From a virus: DNA of 25,143 nt. Of this stretch, positions 1 through 17,404 are shown piece after piece. Numbering within the stretch: position 1 is the first letter of the stretch; the number at the start of each line of letters is the position of its first letter. The position numbers were made by a program, and so were the translations under genes. The notes beneath the pieces are model-generated. The model saw only the letters and a program-made list of their open reading frames with translations. It was not told where the DNA came from and did no database searches. Location: positions 1 through 25,143 of IMG/VR virus record IMGVR_UViG_3300046003_008510. One strand, given 5' to 3'.

Positions 1-1041
1 TACGGTGAAATTCTGGCGCGCGTGCATGACCTTGGCAACACCAGTGGTGGTGGCGATGCAATGGCCGAAGTGCATGGGCTCGTGAAGATGCTGCAGGATC
101 AATCGGACCAAAACCTCCAGGCATGGGTGGCGGCCAAGCACTACGCGGATCTGAGCACGCTCTCTTTTCACAATGGTCCGGTGATGGTGCATCGGATTCC
201 TGATTACTTGAGTTCGCGCAGGAAAGTTATAGGAGCAGACAAGATCGCTCTGTTGGTTTTCGACGGGTTGTCTTTGGATCAGTGGGTACAGATTCGTGAA
301 CGCTTGATCGAGAACACCAAGCGCTTCGCTTTTGATGAAGGCACCTCCTTCGCGTGGCTACCCACGGTAACTTCTGTTTCGCGCCAGGCAATGTTCTCCG
401 GGCGCAAACCCCGTGAATTCGAAGACTCCATCGGGCATACCAACAAGGAAGAGTCGTTGTGGAAGGCGTACTGGCAAGAGCAAGGCGTCAAGCCGAACGA
501 AATCATGTATCAGCGTTCGCTGCGCCAGGTGGAGCAATTGGATGCGTTGGCAACTGCTCTTGAAGATCGCCGACCGAAAATTGTGGGCCTGGTAATCGAT
601 GAGGTGGACGATCGCCTGCACAAGGAACGATCGAAGCAGGATGTGGCGCTGTGGATTGCGAACTGGCTCAAGACGGGGTTTGTTGAGCGCTTGTTCTCCC
701 TGCTGCTGGACAAGGGATTCCACATTTATCTGACAGCTGACCACGGCAATGTCGAGGCTGTCGGCATGGGGCGACCAACCCAGGGAGATATTCCAGAGAC
801 GCGGGGGGAACGCGTTCGGGTGTACCGCAGCGAACCATTGCTGGCCGATTCTGTGGCGAGCTACCCAAATACGGTGAAGTTGGACATCGCTGGACTACCG
901 GCGAACTTCATGCCCTTATTCGCAGGCGGGAGAACGGCTTTTGTTACCGACGGTGAGCAGGTGGTTGTGCACGGCGGTATCTCGGTAGAGGAGCTGATCG
1001 TCCCCTTTGTGAAAGTTAATTACGTGATTGGTAAAGAATGA
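1..1041 (+). CDS. pglZ: PglZ-type phosphatase-like protein of a BREX (type 3-like) system, 3' part
   Basis: The reading frame is open from base 1, so the gene begins upstream. The GTG at 22 is only an internal candidate. What is seen is an alkaline-phosphatase-superfamily PglZ domain: a hydrophobic strand ending in FDGLSLDQW (about 260-285), TSVSRQAMFSG with the expected Thr/Ser (about 370-402), IDEVDDRLH (about 595-620), the metal-site motif TADHGN (733-750) and a C-terminal HGGISVEELIVPF (about 970-1010). PglZ is a core BREX protein; BREX blocks replication of phage lacking the host methylation mark. The wording of these motifs is closest, from memory, to BREX-3 PglZ, and in BREX-3 pglZ is followed by brxA, which fits the overlapping next gene. 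Family PglZ is near certain; the BREX subtype is inference, because brxC, pglX and brxH are outside the window. Confidence 0.88.
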   Translation, partial: YGEILARVHDLGNTSGGGDAMAEVHGLVKMLQDQSDQNLQAWVAAKHYADLSTLSFHNGPVMVHRIPDYLSSRRKVIGADKIALLVFDGLSLDQWVQIRERLIENTKRFAFDEGTSFAWLPTVTSVSRQAMFSGRKPREFEDSIGHTNKEESLWKAYWQEQGVKPNEIMYQRSLRQVEQLDALATALEDRRPKIVGLVIDEVDDRLHKERSKQDVALWIANWLKTGFVERLFSLLLDKGFHIYLTADHGNVEAVGMGRPTQGDIPETRGERVRVYRSEPLLADSVASYPNTVKLDIAGLPANFMPLFAGGRTAFVTDGEQVVVHGGISVEELIVPFVKVNYVIGKE

Positions 1042-1784: not shown

Positions 1785-3623
1785 ATGGCACGTATTGAGA
1801 ACCACAAGTTCAGTATCGAGGAAGCGTTCCGGGAGTGTTTCTACATTGTCCCCGACTATCAGCGGGAATATGTCTGGACGGACAAGGAAGTGCATCAGTT
1901 GCTGGATGACATCAACGAGCAAATTGATGCCGGCTCTGTCCGCGAATACTTCATCGGCACTGTGCTGGTCTCTCCGACCGATCAAAAAAATCACTACGAA
2001 GTCATAGATGGCCAGCAGCGGCTCACGACATTTTTCCTGCTGCTGTGCGCCTTGAAGTATCTGTTCCAGGGTGAGGCGCAGCGACAAACCATCAGCGGAT
2101 TGATCTCGACGAGCTATACCGACAGCGATGGCGAAACGAGGACCAGTCTGAAGCTGGAACCTCGTTACGAAAATGCTGGCGATGTCATGGCCAAACTGGT
2201 TGAACTGGATAACGACCCACAAGTTGTTCGTGCCGGCATCCAGTCTGCCGGGATCCCGAGTTTCGGATCACTGGAAAACCTGGTCAATGCCTACGGTACG
2301 ATTTACCGATACCTGAAGGACAACTACGACGACACGCCGAAACTGAAAAAGTATTGGGGCTACCTGGCCAACAATGTTGTGTTCATCCAGATATCCACCG
2401 ATGTCAGCAGCGCCTTAAAAATCTTCGAGACCATCAACGAGCGCGGCGTGGGTCTGAACCCAATGGACTTGCTGAAGAACCTGTTGTTCACGCAAGTGAA
2501 ACAGGCTCAGTTCACCCAGCTCAAAGACGAGTGGAAGAAGATCACCAAGCCGCTGGAGAAAGAAAAAGAAAAGCCACTGCGTTTCCTGCGCTATTTCCTC
2601 ATGGCCAACTACGTCATCAAGAACGAGCGCGGCGATGCGGTGGTGCGCGAGGACGAGATCTACGACTGGTTCATCGCCAAGGACAACTCGGCTCTTTGCG
2701 ACTACGCCAACAAGCCCTTCGAATTCGTCCGCAAGGTCATTCGCAACGTCGAGCATTACCTGGCATTCGCCAACGGCCTGGGCAACGATGGCAAGTCCAA
2801 TCTGGCGATGGATAGCCTCAAGCGGCTTGCTGGCGGTGCGTTCAGTTTGCACTACGTCCTGTTACTGGCGGCGGCCAATTTTCCCAAGCCGCTGTTCGAC
2901 CATTTCGTGTCGCAACTGGAAAGCTTCCTCTTCTATTACATCTTCACCAAAACGCCGACCAAGGATCTGGAACGTAGCTTCTCGCTTTGGGCCGACGAGT
3001 TGCGTGCGATTGCAGAGGCCAGCGATCCGATGAAACAAAAGGCTCAACTCAACGCCTTTGTCGCCGACCGCTTCGAGAAGAACATGGCCGGCAAGTCGCA
3101 GGAACTGGCCGATGCCCTCAAACGCTTCACCTTGTATTCGATGCAGCAGTACCGAACACGGTACCTACTGGCGCGGCTGACGCAGCACGTCGAGATGGCC
3201 TTCAGTGGGCTGAAGCTGCCTGGCAGCCTGGAGCCGTTCACCAATTTGGAAATCGAGCACATCCTGCCTAACAAGCCAGAGGGGGATCTGCGTGGAAAGT
3301 GGGCCACCGAAAACCAGGGTCTTGCCTACGACGACTACAAGAACCGGCTTGGCAATCTGACCTTGCTGGAAAAGCCGATCAACATCGTCGCAGGCAACGA
3401 TTTCTACACTGCCAAACAGGCCGAGTACCGCAAGAGTGGCAACTACCTGACGCGCAGTCTGGTTGAGCTGACCGACGTCGGTCAGAACACGTCCATCTCC
3501 CGGATCAATGCCAAGCTGGAATCGTTCCCGTCATGGGATGCGTCATCCATCGAAAAACGGCACGGTCTACTGATCGCGTTGGCTCAAGAGGTCTGGAAGA
3601 CGACACCCATCGACGTTTCTTGA
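1785..3623 (+). CDS. DUF262-DUF1524 fusion, GmrSD/BrxU-like type IV restriction enzyme
   Basis: A 612-aa protein with both halves of a GmrSD-type enzyme in one chain. The N-terminal DUF262 domain shows PDYQREYVW (about residues 23-31) and the nucleotide-binding/hydrolysis motif IDGQQRLTTF (about 74-83). A long helical middle leads to a C-terminal DUF1524 HNH-like nuclease domain with EHILPNKPEG (about 489-498) and RLGNLTLLEKPIN further on. Enzymes of this family use an NTP to cut DNA with modified bases such as glucosylated hydroxymethylcytosine; BrxU, found within a BREX island, is the closest functional precedent. The ATG follows a GAAGGA ribosome site about 10 bases upstream and lies 24 bases after the preceding stop, so it belongs to the same operon. 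Both motif sets look intact. The family call is strong; the substrate is inference. Confidence 0.87.
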   Translation: MARIENHKFSIEEAFRECFYIVPDYQREYVWTDKEVHQLLDDINEQIDAGSVREYFIGTVLVSPTDQKNHYEVIDGQQRLTTFFLLLCALKYLFQGEAQRQTISGLISTSYTDSDGETRTSLKLEPRYENAGDVMAKLVELDNDPQVVRAGIQSAGIPSFGSLENLVNAYGTIYRYLKDNYDDTPKLKKYWGYLANNVVFIQISTDVSSALKIFETINERGVGLNPMDLLKNLLFTQVKQAQFTQLKDEWKKITKPLEKEKEKPLRFLRYFLMANYVIKNERGDAVVREDEIYDWFIAKDNSALCDYANKPFEFVRKVIRNVEHYLAFANGLGNDGKSNLAMDSLKRLAGGAFSLHYVLLLAAANFPKPLFDHFVSQLESFLFYYIFTKTPTKDLERSFSLWADELRAIAEASDPMKQKAQLNAFVADRFEKNMAGKSQELADALKRFTLYSMQQYRTRYLLARLTQHVEMAFSGLKLPGSLEPFTNLEIEHILPNKPEGDLRGKWATENQGLAYDDYKNRLGNLTLLEKPINIVAGNDFYTAKQAEYRKSGNYLTRSLVELTDVGQNTSISRINAKLESFPSWDASSIEKRHGLLIALAQEVWKTTPIDVS

Positions 3624-9567: not shown

Positions 9568-11256
9568 TCAGGATTTCACGGAGAGCATCGGCAGCGAGAC
9601 TTCCGCGACACTGTCGGTTTGCCAATTGATCTCGATCTGGTCGGCGTCGAGTCGGGTCTTTTCCAGAAAATAGATCGCGAGCCAGTCTTCGGGGTTGGCG
9701 TCGAAGCCGAAGGACTGATTGATCGTCATCACTTCTTCATCACCGATTGTTCCTGCGCCGAAACTCAAGATCGTGCGGAAATACCAGGTGCCATTTTTGT
9801 GCAGGAACGCGGCTTCGGTGCGACCCGGCATCGGGTTGAAATACAGCGCGTAGCCGCGCGAGGCGACCGTCATCACCGTCTGGTTCGAGAGGATTTTCTT
9901 GACCGGGACGATGGAAGCTTCCCAGGTCGGATGCCAGAACGCGGTCAAGCGGCCCTGACGGGCGGCCAGCCATGCCTTGAAGGCGGCGACCTCAGTGCGG
10001 TTCTTGAAGAGGTAGTCGAAGGAACGGCGCACGAAGGGGCGTGCGGCATGGTCATCCACTGCCGTGATACCGATGTCGAAATCCAGGACTTCGGCCAGCC
10101 GCTGATAATCACTCTCCACGTCACGCATCCGGTTCGGGCGGGTGATCCAGACTGGGGTCGAGTTAAAGGTCGCGATCGAGTCCTGCTTGGTAATCGCCGT
10201 GGTGCCAGCGATATCGAACACCAGTCGGGCGGTTGCGATCGCGTCCGTCACCCGCGAAACCGCCTGGGTTATGCGCAGCCGAGCCGTGCGTGCCGGCGTC
10301 ACAAACGCGCCTGCCGGCCAGGGTTGTAGCAAAGGCTGCTTCAAGGTCACGGCATTACTGGCGATCGATAGTACTTCGGCCGCTTCGGTGTTGCGGCTGT
10401 CCGTACCGATAACCAGGAGTCCGTCGGCCTCGTATTCGAGATTGGTGGTGCTCAGCGGTATCACCGTACTGCCTGCCGCGATTGCTGTCGTCAGCACTCC
10501 CTTGTCGGGCCAAATCGGGAGGGCATAGACCCGCGATTGCCAGGCCGACAGCAGCACGTCGAGAAGCGCTGCATCCGCACTACCTACAAGGATTGAGAAC
10601 TCCAAGGACCGGCGCGGCTTAGCGCGCAAACCGACCCGCTGCTCGGTACCGTCACGCGCAGTGAGGACATCGGTCGCCCACATCAAGCGCTCCAGCCAGC
10701 CGTTTGCCCAGTTTGGTTTGAGCCCAAACACCACGACGCGCCGACCAGAGATCGACAGCGTCGGCGCTTCATCCGGGAACTGGAAGGTGAAATCCGCTTC
10801 GATCACCGGCGGCCCATCAAGGCTCACCGAGACGTTGTGCAGGCGCGACTCCAGCATGCCGTAGGTCGTTGGCGGATTGGCCGGGGCCGCAAGCGTAATG
10901 CCGCCATCGTTTTCCCCGATAACCGCCGACAAGGTCTTGGGGGCGAAGTGGGCGTTCCACACTTCGACCTGGCGCATTTGCGTCGACAGCAGATTGCCCA
11001 GTGCGATCTTGGCCGGCAGCAAGTGGACATGGTGATACCAGTCCTGCTCGAACTGGCGAATGATCGTTCCCGAAAAGCCAATCACGATCTCGGCAACCGG
11101 CAGGTTGTTGGCCATCGCCCCCGCATTGGGTGGGTTGCTTGCCAATGCGCCGGGAAAAGGCAAGGTCAAGGAGGCTGGCAAGAACTTGTAAGCAGCGCCA
11201 TAGGCGGGATCAGACGGCAATCCAGAGGGCAAGATGGCTCCAGCGTAAGTCGTCAT
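9568..11256 (-). CDS. distal tail / baseplate structural protein
   Basis: A 562-aa protein overlapping the preceding gene by ATGA. The N-terminal half (AEIVIGFSGTIIRQFEQDWYHHVHLLP, then MRQVEVWNAHF) resembles structural proteins at the tail end. The middle has beta-rich repeats ending in WPDKGVLTT. The C-terminal part has RPFVRRSFDYLFKNRTEVAAF followed by WLAARQGRLTAFWHPTW, which recalls the DUF2460-type distal tail domain of gene transfer agents. It sits just before the BR0599 gene, where a distal tail protein is expected. No enzymatic motif is visible. Role in tail tip architecture is inferred from order and these patterns. Confidence 0.72.
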   Translation of the reverse strand: MTTYAGAILPSGLPSDPAYGAAYKFLPASLTLPFPGALASNPPNAGAMANNLPVAEIVIGFSGTIIRQFEQDWYHHVHLLPAKIALGNLLSTQMRQVEVWNAHFAPKTLSAVIGENDGGITLAAPANPPTTYGMLESRLHNVSVSLDGPPVIEADFTFQFPDEAPTLSISGRRVVVFGLKPNWANGWLERLMWATDVLTARDGTEQRVGLRAKPRRSLEFSILVGSADAALLDVLLSAWQSRVYALPIWPDKGVLTTAIAAGSTVIPLSTTNLEYEADGLLVIGTDSRNTEAAEVLSIASNAVTLKQPLLQPWPAGAFVTPARTARLRITQAVSRVTDAIATARLVFDIAGTTAITKQDSIATFNSTPVWITRPNRMRDVESDYQRLAEVLDFDIGITAVDDHAARPFVRRSFDYLFKNRTEVAAFKAWLAARQGRLTAFWHPTWEASIVPVKKILSNQTVMTVASRGYALYFNPMPGRTEAAFLHKNGTWYFRTILSFGAGTIGDEEVMTINQSFGFDANPEDWLAIYFLEKTRLDADQIEINWQTDSVAEVSLPMLSVKS

Positions 11257-12020
11257 TTCAGGAAACCGTAGCCGCCGTAACTCATACTGAAAACCATCCA
11301 GTCGCTACCGCCGAGCGTGACGATGTCTTTGTTCACGTACTGTCCATTCATGCGCAGCAAGCGCACGCCGGGGGCATAACCCATCATCGAGCAAAAATAA
11401 CTGGGGGTCGGACGACCAACTTCTATCGTAGCCGGATAGAGTGGCGTCACGCCGTTAAAAGCAATGGGCGAATAACCATCCAACTGGCGCGTGGTCGCCG
11501 AATAGAACGCTTTAACGGTTTCCTCACCAGAAGAGTAGTAGCTCCCCGATTTCCACTTGTTGGTGTTGCCGTCGATGTCGGCCCGCACATTGGTGCTGTA
11601 GGTGTCCGATAGGAAGGCGCCACCGGTAAATGTGCAGGCCTTGGTGATCGTCCCAAAGATGAGGGGCCCATAAGTCGTACTGGCCGTCTGCACGATGCAG
11701 TAACACCAGCCGTCGCCACCAAAAAGGAAATACTCGGCGCTGCCTGACATCTGCGATACGGAAAACGAACCCGAAGCGACGGTTTGCGAACTGTAGGCCA
11801 GCCCACTATTAAAGCTTGTCGATCCGTACCAGGCGATGTAACTCGCGTAGGAATGCAGGTTGACGAACTGGCCACTGGCGGCGTGCTGCAGGTGCAGGCG
11901 GTAGTAACCCGCGTCGGCCTGATGCAACAACTGTGTATAGCCGCAGGACCCGATGGCAAAGAGGCGGATCTTGTCGAGGAGGTCGTTCGGCGAAGTGGTA
12001 ACGCCGGATTGAAATGCCAT
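11253..12020 (-). CDS. virion surface-type protein, paralogue B
   Basis: A 255-aa protein rich in Gly, Ser, Tyr and Phe, with the composition of an exposed beta-structured virion protein. It begins MAFQSGVTTSPNDLLDKIRLFA, closely parallel to the upstream neighbour, and near its end has NKDIVTLGGSDWMVF, parallel to ENIISVGGIDHLVVQ in that neighbour. I infer that the two arose by duplication. The middle (about residues 60-190) is Ser/Thr/Tyr-rich and differs strongly from the paralogue. Location between tape measure and distal tail protein indicates a tail tip or decoration function. It is AT-richer here than flanking genes by eye. No known domain recognised. Confidence 0.7.
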   Translation of the reverse strand: MAFQSGVTTSPNDLLDKIRLFAIGSCGYTQLLHQADAGYYRLHLQHAASGQFVNLHSYASYIAWYGSTSFNSGLAYSSQTVASGSFSVSQMSGSAEYFLFGGDGWCYCIVQTASTTYGPLIFGTITKACTFTGGAFLSDTYSTNVRADIDGNTNKWKSGSYYSSGEETVKAFYSATTRQLDGYSPIAFNGVTPLYPATIEVGRPTPSYFCSMMGYAPGVRLLRMNGQYVNKDIVTLGGSDWMVFSMSYGGYGFLK

Positions 12021-12028
12021 CGCTTACC

Positions 12029-12835
12029 TCACGCGAGCTTTAAGGCCCAGTAGTCGCTGTAGCCGGTACGGAACACGTCCTGCACCACCAGATGATCGAT
12101 GCCGCCGACACTGATGATGTTCTCGGCGGCATTGTTGAATCCCGGCACCGCATAGCAGCCATCCATTTCGCCAAGTCCATTCAGAATGAATGGCAGCAGC
12201 GGGTAGGAGCCGTCCGGGCATTCGCGCGTGTTGTTGCCCCAACTGTTCGGCCACATCGGCGGCACACCCGTCCATACGCCGGTCGGCGCGTAGTACGCCC
12301 CCGAGTAGCCCTGTGACTTGGGCAGATGGTTTCGGTAGGTGTAGCTGTTGCTCCAGCGCGTCGAGCCGTTGTAGGTGCCACCGACCAGCAGTGGATACGG
12401 ATACTGCCCCGGCGTGGCATAGGGCAGGAATAACCCCAGGTGCATCATTTCGTAATAGGTGCCGGTCTTGGCGACCATGACGATGCGTCGACCGTTGGCC
12501 ACGATCCAATACGGCATGGCCGATGCCATGAGCAGCGCGTAGAACGTCCCGCTCGGGTTGTACTGGCCATCGAAGGTCTGCGCCGGATTCCAGCCGACAA
12601 AGCCGCGCAGTTTCCAGTTGCCGTAGTCCGCACCGGCCTCGGACAGGACGCCGACGTTGATCTGATCGGTGCCGGCAAGACCGGGCCCCCGCAACACCAA
12701 TTCTGCCGGGGGCCCAGGCACCCAGCGCAGCACCGACCAGCGCTCGCCGGCAGGCAGCATGTCCTGCGTGACGAACTGTTTGAGGCGGTTCAACAGATCG
12801 AGATAGTCGGTGGCGGTGCCGCTGGTAAATGCCAT
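12029..12835 (-). CDS. virion surface-type protein, paralogue A
   Basis: A 268-aa protein starting 3 bases after the tape measure stop. It begins MAFTSGTATDYLDLLNRLKQFV, a helical head shared with the following gene, then RWSVLRWVPGPPAELVLRGPG. The rest is rich in Gly, Tyr, Trp and Pro with loops such as PMWPNSWGNNTRECPDG, suggesting an exposed beta domain. The C-terminus returns to the pattern shared with its paralogue (NIISVGGIDHLVVQD). Tail-associated by position; the precise role is unknown. A carbohydrate-binding or surface-decoration role is possible but not shown. Confidence 0.7.
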   Translation of the reverse strand: MAFTSGTATDYLDLLNRLKQFVTQDMLPAGERWSVLRWVPGPPAELVLRGPGLAGTDQINVGVLSEAGADYGNWKLRGFVGWNPAQTFDGQYNPSGTFYALLMASAMPYWIVANGRRIVMVAKTGTYYEMMHLGLFLPYATPGQYPYPLLVGGTYNGSTRWSNSYTYRNHLPKSQGYSGAYYAPTGVWTGVPPMWPNSWGNNTRECPDGSYPLLPFILNGLGEMDGCYAVPGFNNAAENIISVGGIDHLVVQDVFRTGYSDYWALKLA

Positions 12836-12838
12836 GGC

Positions 12839-15427
12839 TTACCTCAACAATTCACGCACGGCAGAGCCGTTGCGAGAGAGAACATTGAGAATGGTTTTTT
12901 CTCCGGCGGCGGAATTGAGATAGTCGGCCGCCATGCCGGGGTCAATGACGTTGACGATGCGCACCGATTGCGACGGTGCAGCGGCGGGCGCAGGCGATAC
13001 CGCCGGCACTAAACCACCATCGGCGAAGGCCAGTCGCTGCCCACTCCAACGCGGCATGAACAAGCCACCGTTCAAGGCGTGCAAGAACTCGATGCCGACG
13101 CGGCGCACGGCATCCGCCCGCAGCACATATTCACCAGCAGAGAGCCGCGCCGGGATGGAGTCACTGGTTCCGGTTCCCGGGCCAGTGACATAACCGCCCG
13201 AAGCGAAACCTGCAGATTGAAAGAGGCCGGAGATCAAGCCCCCCAATCCACCACCACCGCCCTTGGTCATGCTGCCAAAGAGTCCCTCGGCGATCTTTTG
13301 CGCCGCGATGCGATTGATGGCCGAGAGCACGGATCGAGCGAAATCCCCAAACGCGTCGGAGGCTGATTTCGCGCCTGATCCGATCTGTTCGAACATCGTC
13401 GTGAAGGCGTTCTCCACATCGCCGTTGATACGGGTGGCCACGTCATCCGCCACGGTCTTGAGACCCGCCACTTCCACCTTGAGCCGGGCCACCCGGTTGA
13501 TGGCTTCCTCCGATCCGGTAGCAGTGGCGAGTGCCTGCATTTTCGGGATCATCCCGTCCACTTCGGTGGCCGTCTGCTGATGCAAGGCCAGCACTTCGCG
13601 CCGCATCTGCGCCTCGGTAATCATCCCGGCATCTTTCTGCACCTGGAGTTCCCGTTCGCGGATGCTCATACGGTCGGTGACGTTCTGATACTGGCGTTCG
13701 AGTTTCGCCAGTTCCGCCATGTCCGCTTCAACGTTGATCAGGCGGGCGACATCGGTAGTGCCGGTGGTGTCGTCCATCCGTTGCAGTTTTTCAATCAGGG
13801 GCTGGTATTCGCGCTCGAGCCGGGTGCGGGTGACGTCGCCACCGGCCCCGCCACGAATTTCGGCCATGCGGTCGCGCACGCGGGCCAATTCGTCTGCCAG
13901 TTCCTTCTCGGCCTTGGCGGCGGCATGCGCGTTGATAATCTCGACTTCGCCGCGCTTCATGTTGAGCACGATGATCTCGCCTTCGAGCTTCTTCACCTCG
14001 GCCTTGGCGCGCAAGCGCTGCGCTTCATCCTTGCCGCCGACCGCCACCGTCGATTGCGCCCTCAGTTCCTGCTGCTTGGCGGCAAGCTCCTGGTCGATGG
14101 CTTGCTGCTCAATTTGTGTCTTGCGTGCGTAGTAGTCGCGCACGGACACCAAGCGGTCGTCGAGGGAACGGTCCAGTGCTGTTTTTTGCAGATCGAGACC
14201 TTCCTTCAGCACTTTGAATTCGGACTCGGCTTGCGCCTTGACCACGGCGAGTTGTGCACCGGTCGTGTCCTTTTCGGTTCCGCCTGTGGCTTTCTTCTCG
14301 CACTTGCCATTGACCCATTGCCCTCCCGACACCACGCAAGCGATCCGCTGCATGTCCTCGGTCGGCTTGCCCGTCGGGGTCTTTTCTTCGGGGCGCTTCG
14401 GACTGGTCAGGTCGTCAAATCGCTTCTTGGCCCCCGCCAGTTCCTGCTCCCACTGGGCGAGATTCTTGCGCAGGGTCGCCATCGCACCCTCGTTGAACTT
14501 GACGTCGAAGGGCATGAACGGCACCGGGGCCTTGCCGGAGTCGACCTTCTGGCGGGCGGAATCGACCAATTCCTGAATGCGTTTGATCTCGTCTCGTGCC
14601 TGCTTGATCTCGGTGCCGTTGAAGATCAGATTACCGACCCCGCCCAAACCGACCCACAACGCCTTCAGCGTTCCGGCCTCGTTGGCTGCCTCGCGCATGG
14701 CGTTGGTGATATTGGTCAGTTCCGGCAGAAAATCGCGGGCCAAAGCGATGCCAAGCGAAGAGCTTGAAGCCTTGAGCACCGTGAGGTTGTCGTTGAACGC
14801 CTCAGCGGAGCGTGCCGTCTCTGTGGTGAGCTTGAGGCCTAGCCGCTCGGCCTCGGCGGTCAGTTGATTGATGCCAGCTGCCCCCTGATTCAGGAACGGG
14901 ATCATGTCCATGCCGCTCTTGCCGAACAGCTTTACCGCGAGCGCCGTTTTGACCGCGCCATCCTCGAGGTTGGCGAAGACATCGGCCATCTGGAGCAGCA
15001 CGGCTTCGGTGGACTTCATGCTGCCATCGGCGTTCTTGACGGAAATTCCCAGGGCATCGAACACCTGCGCCCCGTCGCCGATGCCTGTATTGGCCTCGGC
15101 GATGTTCTGTGACAGCCCCTTGATCCCTTTCTGCAAAGTCTCCAGGCTCACATCCGATAGCTGCGCGGCGAAGTGCAAGGTCGATAAGGCCTCGACCGAG
15201 ATGCCAATCTTCTGCGACAACTTGTTCAGCTGATCGGCCGCATCGATGGCGTTCTTGATCATGGCAGCGAAGCCGGCCACAGACAGCGAAACGCCCAGGC
15301 CCGCCAGGAGTCCTTTGACCCGGTTCGATTCATTCCCAAGCTTGGCGAGATTGCCACGAATTGAGTCGAAGGCCGAGCGGGTCTGGTCGACGGCGGTAAT
15401 CAGCAGTTGGGCACGATCCTGAGTCAC
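12839..15427 (-). CDS. tail tape measure protein
   Basis: An 862-aa protein starting at GTG, 16 bases after the upstream gene. It shows the usual order: an amphipathic start (RAQLLITAVDQTRSAFDSI), a hydrophobic patch (about residues 42-62), the conserved tape-measure unit with LNKLSQKIGISVEALSTLHF and KLFGKSGMDMIPFLNQG, long charged coiled-coil regions from about 270 to 650, a Gly-rich hydrophobic stretch (MTKGGGGGLGGLISGLF), and a C-terminal ASGGYVTGPGTGTSDSIPARLSAGEYV. It sets tail length and is threaded inside the tube with help from the G/GT chaperones encoded upstream. A CVVSGGQWVNGKC module (Cys364 and Cys376) interrupts the charged region; see findings. Non-contractile siphovirus tail is indicated. 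Confidence 0.95.
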   Translation of the reverse strand: MTQDRAQLLITAVDQTRSAFDSIRGNLAKLGNESNRVKGLLAGLGVSLSVAGFAAMIKNAIDAADQLNKLSQKIGISVEALSTLHFAAQLSDVSLETLQKGIKGLSQNIAEANTGIGDGAQVFDALGISVKNADGSMKSTEAVLLQMADVFANLEDGAVKTALAVKLFGKSGMDMIPFLNQGAAGINQLTAEAERLGLKLTTETARSAEAFNDNLTVLKASSSSLGIALARDFLPELTNITNAMREAANEAGTLKALWVGLGGVGNLIFNGTEIKQARDEIKRIQELVDSARQKVDSGKAPVPFMPFDVKFNEGAMATLRKNLAQWEQELAGAKKRFDDLTSPKRPEEKTPTGKPTEDMQRIACVVSGGQWVNGKCEKKATGGTEKDTTGAQLAVVKAQAESEFKVLKEGLDLQKTALDRSLDDRLVSVRDYYARKTQIEQQAIDQELAAKQQELRAQSTVAVGGKDEAQRLRAKAEVKKLEGEIIVLNMKRGEVEIINAHAAAKAEKELADELARVRDRMAEIRGGAGGDVTRTRLEREYQPLIEKLQRMDDTTGTTDVARLINVEADMAELAKLERQYQNVTDRMSIRERELQVQKDAGMITEAQMRREVLALHQQTATEVDGMIPKMQALATATGSEEAINRVARLKVEVAGLKTVADDVATRINGDVENAFTTMFEQIGSGAKSASDAFGDFARSVLSAINRIAAQKIAEGLFGSMTKGGGGGLGGLISGLFQSAGFASGGYVTGPGTGTSDSIPARLSAGEYVLRADAVRRVGIEFLHALNGGLFMPRWSGQRLAFADGGLVPAVSPAPAAAPSQSVRIVNVIDPGMAADYLNSAAGEKTILNVLSRNGSAVRELLR

Positions 15428-15443
15428 GACGGGTTCATCTCTC

Positions 15444-16094
15444 TCAAATCTTGTTCAGTTGCTTCTCAATGGCACGGGCCAGGACGGGCAACTGGCCGCG
15501 CACCGTGCCTTCCAGATCGAAGCGACGCTTCATGGTTATGTTCGGTACCAGCACGGCAATGGGAATCTCCGTGCCGCGCTTGATCGACTTCGTGCCAGTG
15601 CGGCTCCGTTCCGCGCGCTTGAACCGGCTCAGGGCCGAGGCGTTCTCACGGAGGTTTTCTGCCATCAGAATGGCTTGGCCGTTTTTACGGATGAAATACG
15701 CGTTACCCGAGCGAATCAGCGTATCGATGACCCGCTTGAAAGCTCGACGACCGATGCGGCGACCTTCCTCGGTCAATGGAATCAGCATCCGGCCAGAAAG
15801 GGTTCCGCCCCGGACATGGATACCCAGCCAGGGAATCTTCGAGCCGATGAGAACCGCCGGCAATTTGTCGGGGTTGCGGTCATAGACCCTGGCCCGCAAC
15901 GAATTCACGAAGGCTGCTTTCTTCACCGTGAAATCCGACTTCATTTTGCTGCGCACGAGATCGGCCACCGATTTGCCGCCGGCCTGCATGCCCGTGGCCA
16001 CAGCCTTGTGAATGGCGGCCTGCTTTTGTCGCGTCCAGGCCTCGAGCGTGGATTTGTCGAGCAGGCCGGAAGTGGTCAGGGAAATCTTAAGCAT
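15444..16094 (-). CDS. DUF6441-like phage tail protein
   Basis: A basic 216-aa protein. I choose the ATG at 16094 (a TTG precedes it at 16097); the start overlaps the end of the T frame by 8 bases. It has KSVADLVRSKMKSDF, NSLRARVYDRNPD, LPAVLIGSKIPWLGIHVRGG and LIPLTEEGRRIGR. This order matches a family of minor tail or tail-completion proteins (DUF6441, from memory), which resemble HK97 gp10/lambda gpZ-type proteins in size and charge. Its unusual position after the chaperones and directly before the tape measure argues for a tail tip or tape-measure-associated role rather than a connector role. Confidence 0.68.
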   Translation of the reverse strand: MLKISLTTSGLLDKSTLEAWTRQKQAAIHKAVATGMQAGGKSVADLVRSKMKSDFTVKKAAFVNSLRARVYDRNPDKLPAVLIGSKIPWLGIHVRGGTLSGRMLIPLTEEGRRIGRRAFKRVIDTLIRSGNAYFIRKNGQAILMAENLRENASALSRFKRAERSRTGTKSIKRGTEIPIAVLVPNITMKRRFDLEGTVRGQLPVLARAIEKQLNKI

Positions 16095-16365
16095 CAAGGC
16101 GCCTCATGAACTTCTTGATGGCATCACTGCTGCCTTGTGCACCAACGCTCACGACCGACAACAGATTCGCTAGTCGCCGCGACTCCTGGCGATCGATCGC
16201 AGCGATGAAAGCATCGACCTGCGCCAGTGTGTAATTCAGAATGCTGGCGTAGGCATGCCCGGCATCGATCAAGCGCTGGAGGGCATCGCTCCAGGAATCC
16301 GGGCTCCCAGGCCTTGGCTTACCCGCGTCGCCGCCTCGGTCAGGCTCGGCAGCACGCGCTGGATA
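16087..16365 (-). CDS. T part of the tail assembly chaperone, made by -1 frameshift (gpGT-like)
   Basis: This frame has no ATG or GTG start; it opens directly after a TGA that ends exactly at the slippery run and stays open for 92 codons. A TTG at 16272 (TTGA overlap with the G stop) is the only conventional start option, but the residues upstream (SPDSWSDALQRLIDAGHAY) look like part of the same folded protein as the ILNYTLAQVDAFIAAIDR that follows. I therefore read it as the extension of the G product by slippage at 16365-16371, giving a fusion of about 194 aa. In lambda the T domain of gpGT recruits tail tube subunits to the tape measure. Small size and a basic C-terminus (KKFMRRLDA) fit. 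Confidence 0.75.
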   Translation of the reverse strand, partial: YPARAAEPDRGGDAGKPRPGSPDSWSDALQRLIDAGHAYASILNYTLAQVDAFIAAIDRQESRRLANLLSVVSVGAQGSSDAIKKFMRRLDA

Positions 16366-16670
16366 AAAAAATCAGCATTCACCTCGAATACCGCTTCAGC
16401 CAAACGTACTGCATCGTCGAGTGCCAGATTCGTCACCCACTCGGGCGGGCGACGACTGGCGATTGCGACCGCGTCGATTACCGCCTCACCATGCTCGGCC
16501 AGGAGCGCCAGCCAGTCGGGAGACGCCGACAGGCTGGCTGCCACTGGTTGCACGGCGCGAGCGAAGGCCGGCACATCGCCGACCTTGAGCGGCGTGAGAT
16601 CGAGGCGTTCGCCGCCGATGACGAGCGTCACCGGCACCGGCGGCAGCGCAGCAAAAGTGTCGCCTCCCAT
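16269..16670 (-). CDS. tail assembly chaperone, gpG-like
   Basis: A 133-aa protein between the tail tube and tape measure, the position of lambda gpG. The ATG at 16670 overlaps the tail tube stop as TGATG; a GTG just before it is an alternative. It has a beta-like start (PVTLVIGGERLDLTPLKVGDVPAF), a helical middle (WLALLAEHGEAVIDAVAIAS) and NLALDDAVRLAEAVFEVNADFF leading into the T7 slippery run. Most ribosomes should finish at 16269 with a low-complexity tail (GARIPGAMPSSA); a minority should shift to the T frame. It binds the tape measure protein during tail assembly. Confidence 0.82.
   Translation of the reverse strand: MGGDTFAALPPVPVTLVIGGERLDLTPLKVGDVPAFARAVQPVAASLSASPDWLALLAEHGEAVIDAVAIASRRPPEWVTNLALDDAVRLAEAVFEVNADFFIQRVLPSLTEAATRVSQGLGARIPGAMPSSA
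16325..16371 (-). promoter_or_regulatory. -1 programmed ribosomal frameshift signal
   Basis: Read on the - strand, the zero frame is GAT TTT TTT ATC, which supplies the heptamer T TTT TTT (16371 to 16365). After a 7-base spacer (16364-16358) a stem-loop can form: GCGT (16357-16354) with ACGC (16328-16325), GCCG (16350-16347) with CGGC (16333-16330), and CCT (16344-16342) with AGG (16336-16334), closing a 5-base loop, with small internal bulges. Heptamer, spacer length, stem and an immediately upstream TGA in the -1 frame together match the standard design used for tail chaperone G/GT genes. Confidence 0.8.
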
Positions 16671-17404
16671 CACAACAACACGATGCGGCCAAACTGACCC
16701 AGCGCACCGGCGGCCGCCTTGGTGAGATCTGCCAACACTTGACCCGACAATTCGAACTTCATTAATTCCGTGCCGATCACCGACAAGTCCTTGGTCGGAT
16801 TGATGGCCACCCGATAGAGGTCGATCACGACTTCCTTGTTAGCGTCCGCCGTGTTCAGACCCTCGAAGCGCACCCAGCGCTCGGGCAGTGGCTGCGTGAA
16901 CATCGCCGTGACGTTGGCCGCGCCGTAGCTGTAACTGGCGACGATGGCACCCGTGACGCCGGTGATGTCGTTAAACATGATCGAGCCGTGCTTGGCGTTG
17001 ACCGTGTATTTTTCTGCCGCCACGGTCGCCGCCCCCGCCTTGATCACCACGGTGGAGACGTTTTGCTTGCCCAGCAGATAGAGCTTGCCGAGTTCGGCGG
17101 TGGCAATAACGGGCTCGTCGGTAACAGTGCCGGTAGTCACAACGGTGGTGGAACCGTAAAGCGCGAGTTCCAGATTCGACTGAATCAGTTCTTCCAGCGT
17201 GCAGGCAAACTCGCCCTTCTTGGTCTTGATGAGTTGCAGGTCGGTTAGTCGCTGGCCGGATTGGGATTCCTGATGCTCCAGGGTTTCGACCGACAGCGAA
17301 ACCTTGAGGTCGGGGACGTTACCGACGAAGGTGAGCCCTTGCGGATTACCGTTGATGTCACGCGAACCGATGAAGACGCGTCCTTGTCCAGAAAAATAGC
17401 TCAT
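16670..17404 (-). CDS. major tail tube protein (gpV-like)
   Basis: A 244-aa protein forming the tail tube. It begins SYFSGQGRVFIGSRDINGNP and continues with GNVPDLKVSLSVETLEHQESQSGQR, the usual opening of siphovirus tube subunits, followed by alternating beta-strand sequences (KGEFACTLEELIQSNLELALYG) and FTQPLPERWVRFEGLNTAD. The C-terminal part ends with DLTKAAAGALGQFGRIVLL. Size is close to lambda gpV. It lies directly before the chaperone pair and shares a TGATG junction with it. A separate C-terminal Ig-like domain is not evident. Confidence 0.88.
   Translation of the reverse strand: MSYFSGQGRVFIGSRDINGNPQGLTFVGNVPDLKVSLSVETLEHQESQSGQRLTDLQLIKTKKGEFACTLEELIQSNLELALYGSTTVVTTGTVTDEPVIATAELGKLYLLGKQNVSTVVIKAGAATVAAEKYTVNAKHGSIMFNDITGVTGAIVASYSYGAANVTAMFTQPLPERWVRFEGLNTADANKEVVIDLYRVAINPTKDLSVIGTELMKFELSGQVLADLTKAAAGALGQFGRIVLL

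Follow-up and report, generated by a model that had tools for sequence, protein, structure and literature searches.

A T_TTT_TTT heptamer and a predicted frameshifted G/GT-type tail assembly chaperone pair in an IMG/VR virus record

The window, meaning the whole 25,143-base stretch analysed, is the IMG/VR virus record IMGVR_UViG_3300046003_008510. Its minus strand carries a block of head and tail genes: portal, capsid, tail terminator, major tail protein, the G/T pair, a DUF6441 gene, the tape measure gene and further tail genes. The G/T pair had the major tail protein gene upstream and the tape measure gene downstream, the DUF6441 gene being the single extra gene between T and the latter (Table 1). 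The order major tail protein, G/T, DUF6441 was preserved among relatives; in 55 of 57 representatives, the DUF6441 gene stood immediately after T and generally touched or overlapped the T stop codon. Two adjacent minus-strand proteins of 255 and 268 aa (window 11253-12835) each matched PHROG 687 'structural protein', which suggests a duplicated gene. The left end of the window, on the strand opposite to the tail genes, encoded a PglZ-domain protein (PF08665, E 2e-25; 22-1041, plus strand) and a GmrSD-type restriction endonuclease (PF03235, PF07510; 1785-3623, plus strand), and is likely a defence island or a prophage edge. Scans of the window for tRNAs, Rfam families and tandem repeats were negative.

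Table 1. Coordinates, strand and basis of assignment of the features of the G/T region.
Feature	Position	Strand	Basis
Major tail protein gene	16670..17404	-	PHROG 807 (E 1.4e-76); directly upstream of G
G, predicted zero-frame tail assembly chaperone, 133 aa	16269..16670	-	PHROG 1442, fold matches, viral-library matches
Candidate 5' stimulator GAGGTGA (internal Shine-Dalgarno-like)	16379..16385	-	Synonymous constraint; putative function
Slippery heptamer T_TTT_TTT	16365..16371	-	X_XXY_YYZ phase; same place and phase in all distinct relatives; fixed synonymous codons
Predicted fusion junction peptide, LAEAVFEVNADFFYPAR			
G counterpart of the junction peptide, LAEAVFEVNADFFIQR			
T, -1-frame extension, 92 codons plus stop	16087..16365	-	PHROG 13355/14432; homology to Suso and Summit products; conserved core
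Candidate 3' stimulatory bulged stem-loop	16324..16358	-	Stem 16358-16348 with 16335-16324
DUF6441 protein gene	15444..16094	-	PF20039 (E 3.8e-84); directly after T
Tape measure protein gene	12839..15427	-	PHROG 2335, 8462 and others; downstream, with the DUF6441 gene between it and T

The start codon of G (ATG at 16670) overlapped the stop codon (TGA) of the major tail protein gene. G matched PHROG 1442 (tail assembly chaperone) with an E value of 1.8e-31, and a match to Pfam DUF6631 fell under the Pfam cut-off. When G was searched by tblastn in 50,697 phage records, nothing matched, which indicates poor coverage of this family in deposited phages. The AlphaFold model of G had a mean pLDDT of 84.7. 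A Foldseek search of this model against the PDB gave no significant match, and searches of solved structures by sequence with the G and T profiles gave nothing meaningful. The top two PDB rows in a subsequent VIA-align comparison were YqbN of Bacillus (3KLU, Z 5.0) and gp13/TAC of HK97 (2OB9, Z 4.3); the Z values were low, and about 90 residues were aligned at 9-13% identity. Both of these proteins have been named tail chaperones (PMC9603447). In a predicted viral structure library, many of the named matches of the G model were tail assembly chaperones (best E 1.7e-6), and the matches included the 'Pre-tape measure frameshift protein G' of Xylella phage Sano.

Near its 3' end, G reads GAT TTT TTT ATC in the zero frame, which places a run of seven T (16371-16365) in the phase required for tandem -1 slippage, and a TGA in the -1 frame (16374-16372) directly adjoins this run. 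Both elements, as given by the original prediction, were present on the minus strand. Sites of the X_XXY_YYZ type were rare, with seven among 5623 in-phase codon positions of the likely minus-strand genes of the window; T_TTT_TTT was the sole all-T site, and only one of the others (GGGAAAC) had an A/T second triplet.

The comparison set consisted of 152 distinct relatives out of 215 loci, mostly virus contigs and bacterial genomes. In the alignment of relatives proposed with the original prediction, T_TTT_TT(T/C) was invariant: the heptamer occurred at the equal place and phase in all 152 (TTTTTTT in 50, TTTTTTC in 102), counts which are not independent trials, since the relatives share ancestry. 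Synonymous codon choice at the site was also fixed, with GAT at the Asp position in 58/58 sequences and TTT at the first Phe in 60/60, versus 18-51% GAT and 15-32% TTT at other Asp and Phe positions that are well conserved in the G of the relatives. An in-phase TTTTTT was found at none of 7655 positions elsewhere in the G genes of the relatives. We regard the contrast between the site codons and neighbouring codons of the same sequences as decisive despite kinship. With the site count in the window and the invariance among the 152 relatives, the heptamer is far beyond chance.

The remark in the original prediction that a T-only heptamer is less usual has to be qualified, as T_TTT_TT(T/C) is the rule in this lineage. 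T-rich tail-chaperone sites are already known from P2-type phages, which use TTTTTTG for E/E+E' (PMC3091744), so a T heptamer at this locus is not surprising. A point against a frameshift reading is that in E. coli U_UUU_UUU reportedly slips far less than A_AAA_AAG (PMC5009743).

Downstream of the heptamer, the -1 frame was open for 92 codons to a TAA at 16089-16087, and a -1 slip at the heptamer would give a G-T fusion of 194 aa ending at 16087, in agreement with the length of about 194 aa claimed earlier. T matched PHROG 13355 and 14432, its structure was modelled as helices, and its core (W..RLI.AGH...YTL.Q) was conserved across 33 aligned sequences. Stop codons in the -1 frame of the relatives, which the original prediction had named as grounds for refuting it, were looked for and not found: in 150 of the 152 distinct relatives, T lay in the -1 frame and this frame was open from the heptamer onwards. 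One exception (L191) was a truncated contig that ends ahead of a complete T core. In the other (L193, Thermomonas sp. S9, around 2797-3083), one extra T placed G and T in a single frame. The contig name points to Canu long-read assembly, in which homopolymer errors are common; the extra T is probably such an error, or otherwise marks a natural fused variant.

Two alternative origins of the frame relation bear on these data. If G and T were normally one frame, as in L193, the window would contain a sequencing error or a pseudogene; the same -1 relation in 150 of 152 distinct relatives, from metagenomes and from sequenced isolates of many genera, refutes this reading and leaves it a negligible probability. 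Alternatively, RNA polymerase could add one U at the T run, and ordinary translation of the edited mRNA would then produce the same G-T fusion. Homopolymeric A/T runs are known sites of transcriptional slippage (PMC3711429), seven consecutive T occur at this site, and L193 carries an extra T in its DNA with the G and T parts in frame. However, 102 of the 152 distinct relatives have just six T followed by C, and it is thus the phase for tandem slippage rather than the length of the run that is fixed, which argues against transcriptional slippage; the assembly origin indicated by the contig name of L193 also counts against it. We consider it very unlikely and rejected it in favour of ribosomal frameshifting.

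The original prediction had described the -1 frame as 92 codons lacking ATG and GTG. The length was correct, while the absence of these codons was not, as a GTG occurred at codon 71 and an ATG at codon 86, near the C-terminal end. TTG codons were present at positions 31 (16272) and 68, and none of these four codons would be able to start the whole T domain. An open reading frame finder nevertheless reported a frame of 16087-16272 starting at the TTG, and the PHROG 13355 profile comprises only 58 positions, roughly the length that T would have if called from an internal start; both would fit a T gene initiated separately inside the -1 frame. Yet the TTG at 16272 had no Shine-Dalgarno site, fell within the conserved T core and was missing in L007, the nearest distinct relative (91% identity in G), in line with the earlier claim that 16087-16272 is not a free gene. 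Across 58 representatives, the first 30 codons of the -1 frame contained no start codon that had a Shine-Dalgarno-like site, and one relative (L127) lacked any ATG, GTG or TTG over the whole T frame. Since a conserved usable start is lacking, T is most likely made as a fusion only. A free T protein is unlikely, and initiation of T as a separate gene, which we also rejected, is extremely improbable.

The 7-base spacer (16364-16358) and the bulged stem-loop (stem from about 16357) claimed in the original prediction were present, but the folding strength of the stem did not exceed chance: it folds at about -20 kcal/mol, yet with a z of -0.71, and 38 of 200 shuffles of this GC-rich sequence folded as well. 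As the stem-loop by itself is no stronger than chance, its support comes only from relatives. In 16 close relatives, the stem pairs were retained in 76.7% of cells, versus 30-48% when slid, and two stem pairs had changes on both sides; RNAalifold on these 16 sequences gave no strong consensus structure. On the T_TTT_TTC branch, the exact stem pairs were not retained (47.6% paired, no better than slid controls). Family-wide, folding energy dipped just past the heptamer, with a mean z of -0.85 at +6 versus a background of -0.27. The folding pattern suggests that some downstream structure is favoured, with a variable exact form, and a stimulatory role of the stem-loop is only moderately supported.

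A second candidate stimulator, GAGGTGA, ends 7 nt upstream of the heptamer, and its GAGG core ends 10 nt upstream; Shine-Dalgarno stimulators of -1 shifts have a spacing of 9-14 nt (PMC5009743). Codon -4 was GAG in 51 of the 53 Glu-encoding representatives, versus 65% expected, ranking third in strength among the synonymous constraints of the region. The GAGG element may thus act as a 5' frameshift stimulator. A tentative and rather doubtful extension is that, across this lineage of phages and prophages of mostly Proteobacteria, slippage on U_UUU_UUY is set mainly by pairing of the upstream GAGG with 16S rRNA, with interchangeable downstream structures. If true, 5' rather than 3' stimulation would fix the G:GT ratio.

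The arrangement resembles that of gpG/gpGT of phage lambda, in which the gene likewise comes after the major tail protein gene and ahead of the tape measure gene, and a -1 shift near the 3' end of G adds a T domain; the likeness is one of arrangement. The slippery site of lambda is GGGAAAG, unlike the T_TTT_TTT here, and the DUF6441 gene between T and the tape measure gene is a further difference. HK97 gp13 and YqbN resemble G by their rank in the structural comparison, and differ by the low identity and Z values given above. The E/E+E' pair of P2 is likewise a tail chaperone pair with a T-rich -1 site; its heptamer, however, ends in G, and its products are shorter (91 and 142 aa). P2-like sites have been reported without a downstream hairpin (PMC3091744). 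The Stenotrophomonas phages Suso (MZ326866) and Summit (MZ326862) have a homologous T domain, annotated as joined CDS or tape measure chaperone frameshift products, with T_TTT_TTC in Suso and T_TTT_TTT in Summit at an equivalent V-N-x-(D/G)-F-F motif. Their G is longer and diverged, and their tape measure gene follows directly after T. T_TTT_TTC occurs at this motif in the Pseudomonas phages PotUPM1 and pAN as well, which have no frameshift annotation.

Gene position, family and fold matches, the invariant heptamer, the -1 frame of T kept in relatives and the absence of a usable start for T together support the G/GT-type -1 frameshift cassette of the original prediction. The locus very probably encodes a pair of G/GT tail assembly chaperones, with G-T arising through programmed -1 ribosomal frameshifting. 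The analysis shows the sequence anatomy, its evolutionary conservation and the family and fold resemblance; slippage itself, its rate, its stimulators and the role in assembly are inferred. Most ribosomes would complete G. A small share, with tRNA-Phe in the P and A sites on T_TTT_TTT, would slip back by one base, re-pair with TTT TTT and resume reading at TAT CCA into T, giving G-T with the junction N-A-D-F-F/Y-P-A-R. By analogy with tail-chaperone genes that gave 6-7% (PMC3711429), a few per cent of -1 product would be expected in E. coli. In the lambda model, the tape measure protein is the platform on which G and G-T assemble, the major tail protein is brought in by T, and neither G nor G-T is part of the virion (PMC5009743). 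By analogy, G and the G part of G-T would coat the tape measure protein here, the T part would recruit the major tail protein, and G and G-T would leave the finished tail.

The G/T pair is a well-supported further example of a long-known phage mechanism, the understanding of which is unchanged. For annotation, G and T should be joined and the open reading frame at 16087-16272 dropped. Its additions are small: a U_UUU_UUY site that does not vary across a broad lineage, a candidate GAGG stimulator and a DUF6441 gene directly after T. U_UUU_UUY is the fixed slippery site over a wide tail-chaperone lineage, including phage records in which T has no frameshift annotation, such as PotUPM1 and pAN.
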